From positions 19,641 to 83,640 of IMG/VR virus record IMGVR_UViG_3300028553_000013: a stretch of 64,000 nt of DNA; one strand, 5' to 3'. The translations under genes and the position numbers were made by a program. The notes beneath the pieces were generated by a model that was not told the origin of the DNA, ran no database searches, and saw only the letters and a program-made list of their open reading frames with translations. Origin of the DNA: a virus. Positions 37,806 through 40,803 of this stretch are shown piece by piece (positions within the stretch are counted from its first letter, which is position 1; the number at the start of each line of letters is the position of its first letter).

Positions 37806-39510
37806 GTTTAAAAAAATTTGTTATAAGAATTTTCTTTCATCAGGAAACCAGTTTACATCAATCAAACTAAACCAAAATACCAACACTTTAATTGTTGGAC
37901 AGAATGGTGCTGGTAAGTCAACTATTCTTGATGCTTTGTGTTTTTCGTTGTTTAATAAACCATTCAGGAAGATCAACAAAAATCAAATTATCAACTCATC
38001 CAATGAAAAAGATTGTGTAGTTGAGATTAATTTTAATGTAAACAATAACGAATATAAAGTTGTTCGTGGCATCAAACCTGGTATTTTTGAAATTTACCAG
38101 AATGGTAAAAAGATGAATGAAGATGCTTCTGCACAGGATCAGCAAAAGATGCTTGAGAATAATATTCTCAAGTTAAACTACAAGTCATTTACTCAGATCG
38201 TTATTCTTGGTAGTGCCTCGTTTGTCCCATTTATGCAGCTTCCTGCAGCACATAGACGAGAAGTGATTGAGGACCTTCTTGATATCAAAGTTTTTTCTTC
38301 AATGTCTGAGATCTTGAAGAACAAGATTAAAGAATCTAAAGAAACTGTCAAGACATTGGAGTTGAAAAAAAAAGGGATTGCTGATAAAATTATTATGCAG
38401 CAAAACTTTATCAAGCAAATTGAAGAGACTGGGCAGAATGATATCAAAAATAAACAAACCCAAATTACTGAGTGTGAAAGTGAAGTTTCTAAGTACAATG
38501 AAAGTGTCTTCAGTCTTTTACATGAAGTTGAAAACAAACAACAAGAAATAGAAAAGTACTCGGATGCTTCAGATACTCTTCGTAAACTTGGAACTTTCCG
38601 AGGTAAGATTGGAAATAAGAAACAAAACTCCAGTGATGTTTTGGAGTTTTTTAAAGAACATTCGGTTTGCCCAACATGTACACAAACAATTGAAGAAACG
38701 TTTCGTGTAAATAAAACAGAAGAGCTCCAGCAAGTCCTAAGTTCTTATGAAAGTAATCTTCAAGAAATTGAAGACACAATCAAAAAAGAAGAAGAACGTG
38801 AAAAAGCATTTTTCGGACTTCAAATGGAGATTACAAAACTACAAAATGAAATTTCTCAGATCAACATTCGTATTGCTAACTCAACTAAATCAAAATCAAT
38901 TATTGAGAAAGAAATTCAAATTATTACCACAAGACTTGAAAATAAAAATACTGAACACGAAAAACTAAGCGAATACAAATCCAATTTAAAACAACTACTG
39001 ATAGACCTTGAACATCTCAAAGATGATTATGGATACTATATTCAAGCAAATGTTCTACTCAAAGATGATGGTGTAAAGAGTAGTATTATTAAAAAGTATT
39101 TGCCACTAATCAATCAGCAAGTCAATAAGTATTTACAGATGATGGACTTCTTCATAAACTTTACGTTAGATGAAGAATTCAACGAAAAAATTAAAACTCC
39201 AATTCACGAAAACTTTTCTTATCCTTCTTTTTCTGAAGGTGAAAAGATGAGAATTGATTTATCATTATTGTTTACTTGGCGAGAAATTGCAAGATTGAAG
39301 AACAGTGTTTCCACAAATCTTTTGATCATGGACGAAGTATTTGATAGTTCTCTAGATGGTTTGGGAACAGATGAATTCTTCAAAATTATTCGACATGTGG
39401 TTAGCAATGCTAATATCTTTATCATTTCTCATAAAAATGAATTGCACGAAAAGTTTGAAAATGTGCTAGAATTCCATAAGGTCAAGGGTTTCAGTCAATT
39501 GAAACCTTGA
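37798..39510 (+). CDS. gp46: Recombination nuclease ATPase gp46 (Rad50/SbcC-like)
   Basis: A 570-residue ABC-type ATPase (T4 gp46 has 560). Walker A GQNGAGKST at residues 34-42, zinc hook CPTC near 290 flanked by long coiled coils, ABC signature FSEGEKMRIDLSLLF near 478-490 and Walker B LLIMDEVFDSSLD near 505-517. It forms the end-resection complex with gp47. It overlaps the DUF3110-like gene by 8 bases. Confidence 0.95.
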   Translation: MIEFKKICYKNFLSSGNQFTSIKLNQNTNTLIVGQNGAGKSTILDALCFSLFNKPFRKINKNQIINSSNEKDCVVEINFNVNNNEYKVVRGIKPGIFEIYQNGKKMNEDASAQDQQKMLENNILKLNYKSFTQIVILGSASFVPFMQLPAAHRREVIEDLLDIKVFSSMSEILKNKIKESKETVKTLELKKKGIADKIIMQQNFIKQIEETGQNDIKNKQTQITECESEVSKYNESVFSLLHEVENKQQEIEKYSDASDTLRKLGTFRGKIGNKKQNSSDVLEFFKEHSVCPTCTQTIEETFRVNKTEELQQVLSSYESNLQEIEDTIKKEEEREKAFFGLQMEITKLQNEISQINIRIANSTKSKSIIEKEIQIITTRLENKNTEHEKLSEYKSNLKQLLIDLEHLKDDYGYYIQANVLLKDDGVKSSIIKKYLPLINQQVNKYLQMMDFFINFTLDEEFNEKIKTPIHENFSYPSFSEGEKMRIDLSLLFTWREIARLKNSVSTNLLIMDEVFDSSLDGLGTDEFFKIIRHVVSNANIFIISHKNELHEKFENVLEFHKVKGFSQLKP

Positions 39511-39535
39511 CAACTTTTTAGATTTGTAATATAAT
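39507..39535 (+). promoter_or_regulatory. Consensus sigma70 promoter upstream of hli
   Basis: Perfect TTGACA (39507-39512), 17-base spacer and perfect TATAAT (39530-39535). The -35 overlaps the gp46 stop. It should drive strong transcription by unmodified host polymerase. Confidence 0.85.
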
Positions 39536-39562: not shown

Positions 39563-39772
39563 ATGACGATCACAACCAACGAACGCGGCGAACAAAATGT
39601 GTTTGCCCAAGAACCTAAAATGTACATTACGGAGAAAGACATGCAACAAAATGAAGTTGAAACTTATGCTGAACGTGCCGAAAAATTAAATGGTCGTCTA
39701 GCCATGCTAGGTTTTATTGCTGCTGTTGGTGCTTATGCATTGACTAAGCAAATTATTCCTGGAGTTTGGTGA
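39563..39772 (+). CDS. hli: High-light-inducible protein (Hli)
   Basis: A 69-residue single-helix protein with the chlorophyll-binding signature AERAEKLNGRLAMLGFIAAV at residues 36-55 and one membrane helix to about residue 66. Host Hli proteins bind chlorophyll and carotenoids in the thylakoid membrane and protect photosystems under stress; phage copies are thought to sustain photosynthesis during infection. The N-terminal 35 residues are soluble and variable. It is monocistronic: consensus promoter before, terminator after. An auxiliary metabolic gene of cyanobacterial origin. Confidence 0.95.
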   Translation: MTITTNERGEQNVFAQEPKMYITEKDMQQNEVETYAERAEKLNGRLAMLGFIAAVGAYALTKQIIPGVW

Positions 39773-39790: not shown

Positions 39791-39819
39791 AAAGGAGGTA
39801 AAAAATACCTCCTTTTTTA
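39791..39819 (+). terminator. Rho-independent terminator between convergent genes
   Basis: A 10-base-pair stem AAAGGAGGTA/TACCTCCTTT with a 5-base loop, then a T-run. It terminates hli on the plus strand; the same hairpin can terminate the minus-strand radical SAM operon, though with a poorer T-run on that side. Confidence 0.85.
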
Positions 39820-40494
39820 TTAACTATACCAGGGATGTTCAGGATCTTTTTTCAACATATCTTGAGTATAACTTCTTGGTTTAAAACGTAACTCCGAGTT
39901 TTCTGCTTGCATTGATTCACAATTCTCCCACCATCTACTAGAAATTTTTTTGTTTATTTTGATACCATATTTATTTGCAAGAATTTCACATTCCTGCAAA
40001 TTATGTTCATTGTAATTAAAAATTATACAATCCCATTCTGTTTTTATTCCCATTTGAGCACACATTTTCATTATTTCAAACAGTTTCTCTCCATTTTGAT
40101 TTTTTCTATACAAATGACTTTGACTTGGTAATCCATCCAACGCAAAAACCCATTTAACATTACCCCTTTTAGAAAGTAAAAACGGTTTTAGGTATTGTTT
40201 CCTATCTTTTAAAACTGAGGAATGATATACTATAGATGATTTTTTATTATCCACACATATTTTTAATAGTTCATAAAACTTTGGGTGGTATAGAGGATCT
40301 GAAACTTGACCACAGAATGTTATATTATCAAAATAATCTACAATTATTTTCATCTGTGCTATGGTTATATCTCTTCCTGGAATTTTTTTAGCATCTCCAT
40401 CATAATATTTTTGTCTATTGCATCCTGGACATGCTAATCCACATTTATTAGATATGTCTAAATTAATTTGCTTAAGAAGTTTTTCTGGTATCAT
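39820..40494 (-). CDS. Radical SAM protein, uncharacterised family
   Basis: A 224-residue protein with the [4Fe-4S]-SAM motif CGLACPGC at residues 18-25 (C18, C22, C25), preceded by the strand INLDISNK. Other radical SAM barrel features are the FCGQVSDPLYHP segment (near 60-71) and the strand KWVFALDGLPSQSHLYR (near 113-129). No fused SPASM or twitch domain follows; the cysteine-rich partner at 40491 appears to supply it. It is minus-strand, against all neighbours, and overlaps its partner by 4 bases. Radical SAM enzymes of this branch often modify peptides or make cofactors, but the substrate here is unknown. Confidence 0.8.
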   Translation of the reverse strand: MIPEKLLKQINLDISNKCGLACPGCNRQKYYDGDAKKIPGRDITIAQMKIIVDYFDNITFCGQVSDPLYHPKFYELLKICVDNKKSSIVYHSSVLKDRKQYLKPFLLSKRGNVKWVFALDGLPSQSHLYRKNQNGEKLFEIMKMCAQMGIKTEWDCIIFNYNEHNLQECEILANKYGIKINKKISSRWWENCESMQAENSELRFKPRSYTQDMLKKDPEHPWYS

Positions 40495-40778
40495 TTTACA
40501 ACCATGTTAGGTGTTGAAGTATCACTACAATAATAATGGCAAGGATAAGGCAAACTTTCACTTTTATTTTCTAATTGTTCAAAAAATTTTTGCCACGTTT
40601 TTGAGTTGAACACTTCTTCAATTGAATTTACATTATTTAAATTTAATTTTTCTTCAACAAACTGAAGAGCATCATATTTTAATGAGTATTCGTTGTCGTA
40701 ATAACAACATGGCAAAATAAATCCCCGCGAAGAGAACCCAAAACATTGCTGTTTTTTTAAACACTTTGGATCAATCAT
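40491..40778 (-). CDS. Stand-alone SPASM-like cysteine-rich protein
   Basis: A 95-residue protein with C6, C12, C24, C25, C80 and C84. The arrangement CFGFSSRGFILPCCYYD, then SIEEVFNSKTWQKFFEQLEN, then CHYYC matches the auxiliary iron-sulfur (SPASM/twitch) domain that normally follows a radical SAM barrel: CC-Y, a short EVWNS-like helix, then CxxxC. Here it is a separate gene transcribed before the radical SAM gene, with an ATGA overlap. It probably binds an auxiliary cluster and the substrate for the partner, or is an independent redox protein. Confidence 0.65.
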   Translation of the reverse strand: MIDPKCLKKQQCFGFSSRGFILPCCYYDNEYSLKYDALQFVEEKLNLNNVNSIEEVFNSKTWQKFFEQLENKSESLPYPCHYYCSDTSTPNMVVK

Positions 40779-40803
40779 AGTAAATGATATTTTTTGTATT
40801 TAT

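Follow-up and report, generated by a model that had tools for sequence, protein, structure and literature searches.

The gene pair and its surroundings

We analysed a stretch of 64,000 nucleotides (the window), which is part of an 83,640-base virus record. A longer IMG/VR contig (171,943 bases) represents the same virus, being identical across the 12,672 bases compared. Because that contig encodes the D1/D2 photosystem proteins, we assigned the source virus to the marine T4-like cyanophages; its closest nucleotide matches were Synechococcus and Prochlorococcus phages. Two minus-strand genes of the window, here called S (95 aa, SPASM/twitch-type) and R (224 aa, radical SAM), are the subject of this report. 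Their coordinates and those of neighboring features are listed in Table 1.

Table 1. Features of the R/S cassette and its flanks (window coordinates)
Feature	Position	Strand	Remarks
hli, high-light-inducible protein	39563..39772	+	Convergent neighbor of the cassette
Intrinsic-terminator-like hairpin	39791..39815	+	T tract in + direction only; 3' of hli
R subunit, radical SAM core (224 aa)	39820..40494	-	C18xxxC22xxC25; FCGQxSDP and DGLPxxSHxYRxNQxG motifs
ATGA stop/start overlap of S and R genes	40491..40494	-	Sequence AAAATGATACC
S subunit, stand-alone SPASM/twitch-type Fe-S protein (95 aa)	40491..40778	-	C6, C24, C80, C84 invariant; C25 conserved among split pairs
ATAAATA late-promoter element of the cassette	40797..40803	-	AATAAATA; ends 18 nt before the SPASM ATG

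An earlier note, made from the sequence alone, had described both open reading frames, their ATGA junction with the SPASM gene first, and their standing as the only convincing minus-strand genes of the window. We found both frames exactly as described and joined as described, and inspection of the ORF list by eye revealed no other acceptable gene on that strand. From the overlap we infer translational coupling of the two genes. The adjacent hli gene is not thought to be a component of the enzyme.

The ATAAATA element upstream of S was retained in three close relatives (L003, L005, L006). In the window this motif occurred in 24 plus-strand copies, 16 of which sat 10–45 nt before a gene start (0.8 expected), and in four minus-strand copies, one being the cassette promoter; on this distribution, it behaves as a late-promoter-like element of this phage. 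Sister pairs with the SPASM gene first (e.g., L024 and L036) were sited between the large terminase (gp17) and tail sheath (gp18) genes. Because the element precedes the pair, and because sister pairs occupy this position, the pair is probably expressed late in infection. The element previously called a divergent promoter is better termed a late promoter, and the idea that the cassette is an independently expressed unit was supported as a prediction from sequence. The same note had the cassette sharing a terminator with hli. This we could not support, because the minus-strand side of the hairpin continues as AAAAATAT.

A perfect 12/12 sigma-70 promoter match (TTGACA-17-TATAAT; 39507–39535) precedes hli and differs from the late element in front of the cassette opposite. 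In two relatives (L005:1778-3249 and L006:2803-4274), a 187-aa gene and a gene for a 291-aa SLH-domain protein lie between hli and a gp46-like gene; neither is present in the window, which suggests an insertion hot spot next to the cassette. A 282-aa gene without a Pfam match was found directly downstream of SPASM-first pairs at L037:1730-2578 and six other loci.

Domains, cysteines and predicted folds

The cluster motif CxxxCxxC of R corresponds to C18/C22/C25, as first read, and was 98% conserved over 106 pairs. The Pfam profile Radical_SAM (PF04055) spanned residues 14–157 of R at a sub-threshold score (24.4 vs 29.5 bits, E 3.6e-5), and it matched 34 of 45 R relatives at E 0.01 or better. 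Two further motifs were conserved, DGLPxxSHxYRxNQxG and FCGQxSDP; the latter replaces the usual GGEP and places an unusual conserved cysteine at that site. No NCBIfam equivalog was approached by R (best 26 bits vs a cut-off of 170). Among the NCBIfam heme synthases there was no match, with NirJ2 (heme d1) giving a weak 19.8 bits (cut-off 500). Searches of PDB sequences with family profiles gave no convincing relative for either protein: the best hit for R was a tetraether-lipid radical SAM synthase (E 0.0014), and S reached BtrN at E 1.4–1.9.

Protein S matched SPASM (PF13186) above the curated cut-off (27.1 vs 21.5 bits), and 35 of 45 S relatives matched this profile at E 0.01 or better. We aligned split R and S rows with several single-chain proteins; four cysteines of the S-type domain (C6, C24, C80 and C84 in the window) were invariant in split and single-chain relatives alike. 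The pattern proposed earlier, C24/C25 plus C80/C84, was therefore right for three residues. It had overlooked C6, and it included C25, which is invariant across 45 diverse aligned split S proteins but missing in the Campylobacter phage CP220 proteins.

A full SPASM domain, which holds two auxiliary clusters, has a seven-cysteine pattern, CX9-15GX4C-CX2CX5CX3C-C. Protein S fits the two ends of this pattern (C6-x12-G19-x4-C24 at the start, C80xxxC84 at the end) and lacks the central CX2CX5 portion, with four invariant cysteines in place of seven. By this measure S resembles a twitch domain more closely than it does a full SPASM. Because four cysteines are kept in every relative and the middle portion is absent, S probably carries one auxiliary [4Fe-4S] cluster, twitch-like, rather than two.

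The predicted structure of the window's 95-aa protein had a pLDDT of 87. A Foldseek search of this very small model against the PDB returned a single match, to anSME (E 5.1, probability 0.08). More was learned from L038, a natural fusion of R and S, whose model had a mean pLDDT of 71.6, with split SPASM rows in its alignment and a poorly modelled radical SAM cysteine loop. Over most of its length this model matched BlsE, SkfB, EpeE, BtrN, MoaA and PqqE (E 1.9e-6 to 1.1e-4), and these matches indicate a radical SAM barrel fold for the fusion. The nearest predicted viral structures were those of phage radical SAM proteins of this type. The SPASM/twitch identity of the 95-aa protein was thus upheld by profile and by the fold of the fusion, and the lone model was uninformative.

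Linkage, fusion and known relatives of the pair

A viral profile scan for relatives of R produced 269 loci, and we examined the best 80 of these for a partner. At 74 of the 80, a SPASM gene abutted R on the same strand. The other six comprised two fusions, two loci with the SPASM gene ~1.5 kb upstream and two that ended at a contig edge, so that none of the best 80 held an orphan R. The earlier expectation that the two genes would be conserved together was borne out in every relative with enough flanking sequence, and the linkage was far beyond chance expectation. Over all loci we counted ~106 distinct pairs, 72 with the radical SAM gene first and 34 with the SPASM gene first; spacing was mostly −98 to +20 nt, and nearly all pairs overlapped or abutted. 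Close relatives of the window pair (L002–L006, from IMG/VR; 75–100% identical) shared its gene order and position. A search of 50,697 phage records found the pair in one alone, Pelagibacter phage Mosig, with the radical SAM gene first. On these counts, the split pair is the rule in a large, mostly uncultured phage family. Split pairs were also seen in contigs binned as Flavobacteriales, Acidimicrobiia and Rhodobacteraceae (L127, L128, L129, L130). In a longer assembly of the same virus (L143, G001:108000-127900), three further radical SAM genes lay beside two tandem carbamoyltransferase genes, and one of the three was a single-chain homologue of the R/S pair.

Distance matrices of R and S were strongly correlated (r = 0.88; maximum 0.07 in 500 mirror-tree permutations). 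This correlation reflects shared inheritance and is by itself no proof of contact. In the radical SAM tree, the window R sat in a ten-member SPASM-first clade (support 100/99). The fusion L038 was nested among split pairs as sister to the split L042 (99/98; p-AU 0.048 when forced outside), and the same fused form was found in L035, from another metagenome. Conversely, the split L063_7820 was nested within single-chain proteins (100/99). Such fusion and fission provide the strongest evidence at the sequence level that R and S act as one enzyme. The SPASM-first order appeared at several places in the tree; a single origin was marginally disfavored (p-AU 0.056), and is not clearly excluded by these topologies.

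The single-chain enzymes BtrN, BlsE, SkfB, EpeE, PqqE and MoaA resemble the pair in joining a CxxxCxxC radical SAM core to a small Cys-rich auxiliary Fe-S domain, and match the natural fusion in fold over its whole length. They differ in that the pair has its auxiliary domain on a separate protein and, in the window clade, in reversed order; identity is 15% or less, and S has four or five cysteines compared with the seven of a full SPASM. The earlier note regarded the auxiliary domain of known enzymes as always C-terminal. This is not so, as the N_Twi_rSAM family (NF033640), found in similar marine phages, has its twitch domain ahead of the radical SAM core. The reversed order alone thus has a precedent, in fused form. 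Members of NF033640 are single chains of roughly 440–530 aa, unlike the split pair, and the window R scored 26.1 and 20.6 bits against the family cut-off of 170 bits. The N-terminal twitch of NF033640 aligned with S at the motif level only (hhalign probability 2.7%), which did not support it as the direct ancestor of S. Two single-chain phage proteins, G001:114535 and Campylobacter phage CP220 gp083, combine a homologue of the R domain with a C-terminal domain bearing the same four cysteines, but fall outside the split clade. The cultured example, Mosig_00084/Mosig_00085, is the same split pair at 34–36% identity; unlike the window pair it opens with the radical SAM gene and belongs to an operon that includes sugar-type tailoring genes, and its two members carry the annotations molybdenum cofactor enzyme and hypothetical protein.

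Already known are the component domains and the auxiliary-first order in fused form. No characterised radical SAM-SPASM enzyme known to us has its auxiliary domain as a separate subunit, and in the open-access literature that we searched we found no report of a split or separate SPASM. Radical SAM/SPASM (‘ahbD’) matches have been noted in contigs of marine phages and in the host-recognition regions of pelagimyophages (PMC9301287, PMC5332604, PMC7029224); the split pair is not described in the portions of these papers that we drew on. PMC9301287 reports 261 ahbD instances, of which just three contigs have both domains, a scarcity that split pairs with an R half below the Pfam cut-off might explain.

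A probable two-subunit enzyme and its possible substrate

It seems likely that R and S together form a single radical SAM-SPASM/twitch oxidoreductase in two subunits. R would hold the SAM-cleaving [4Fe-4S] cluster through C18/C22/C25 and generate the 5'-deoxyadenosyl radical. S would dock at the site taken by the C-terminal auxiliary domain in single-chain relatives and supply one auxiliary [4Fe-4S] cluster, probably via C6, C24, C80 and C84, which would accept an electron or position the substrate. The gene overlap would let both subunits be made together from the late promoter. We also lean, with some reserve, towards a broader reading, in which obligate two-protein radical SAM enzymes form a large family, widespread in marine phages, whose auxiliary domain has been freed, reordered and occasionally re-fused or re-split, and which would carry out a modification not yet described, late in infection by cyanophages and pelagiphages.

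Sequencing error, or decay of a single gene, could instead account for the split, and single-chain relatives do occur within the same virus group. We give this practically no weight. A frameshift cannot generate an order opposite to that of the C-terminal fusion; five IMG/VR contigs share the identical arrangement, and conservation extends to both halves. Gene order and conservation thus refute this explanation. It is also improbable that S serves independently, as an electron-transfer or scaffold protein, and merely travels with R, with R acting alone or with host partners. Neighboring phage genes often travel together without interacting, and the two loci with R and S genes 1.5 kb apart fit such a view; however, fusion and splitting of the two are recurrent, the cysteines of S are those of single-chain C-terminal SPASM domains, and R was never orphaned among the best 80 of 269 loci.

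The substrate of a two-subunit R/S enzyme could not be read from the neighbors of the window pair, as the window clade is without biosynthetic neighbors. Sister operons with the radical SAM gene first contain a GDSL hydrolase, a DegT/StrS sugar aminotransferase, a carbamoyltransferase, GT8, a methyltransferase, a nitroreductase and further radical SAM genes. Because these operons hold such a sugar-tailoring set, our tentative choice of substrate class is a sugar or glycan, carried by a nucleotide-sugar, the virion or the cell surface, which would be oxidised or epimerised; this context belongs to sister clades and is absent around the window pair and its near relatives. A virion protein is our next choice. 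We discarded the largest neighbor cluster (72 members), which proved to be chained out of unrelated enzymes.

Most characterised SPASM enzymes modify ribosomally made peptides or proteins, and the pair could likewise act on a ribosomal peptide or virion protein encoded elsewhere in the phage (epimerisation, thioether or formylglycine formation). The matches of the L038 model to SkfB, EpeE, SuiB and PqqE are consistent with this, as are the siting of sister pairs within the late structural block, gp17 to gp18, and the late promoter of the window pair. We nonetheless consider it rather doubtful, since the sugar-acting BtrN and BlsE match the L038 model equally well, and no peptide-binding (RRE) domain was found in R or S. 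The absence of a short precursor peptide beside the pair, remarked on before, extended across the family: the upstream gap was <100 nt in 98 of 101 pairs, and the downstream gap in 93 of 98, leaving no space for a precursor gene. With no such room, and with sugar-tailoring genes in sister operons, the earlier pointer to a peptide as the likely substrate was not supported. It is very improbable that the pair serves heme or cofactor biosynthesis in the manner of AhbD or MoaA. The Mosig annotation, the MoaA fold match of the L038 model and the ahbD label given to viral SPASM/radical SAM matches in PMC9301287 speak for it; yet the NCBIfam scores fall far short, the MoaA match is at 11–13% identity, and PMC9301287 itself terms the ahbD inference speculative.

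In all characterised SPASM enzymes that we know of, the auxiliary cluster is on the same chain as the radical SAM core, and therefore the contribution of that cluster is difficult to isolate. With a natural two-chain system, the auxiliary domain could be added, removed or swapped in vitro, and Mosig on Pelagibacter offers one cultured phage as a test bed. Many uninterpretable radical SAM, SPASM, ‘ahbD’ and ‘molybdenum cofactor’ labels in marine viromes may denote halves of one enzyme.

Lastly, a 291-aa family with strong conservation turned up immediately upstream of many pairs with the radical SAM gene first (L099:4453-5328, L001:7105-7971 and 14 others). It had no match in Pfam or the PDB; judged by eye only, its C-terminal motif resembles that of GT-B glycosyltransferases.
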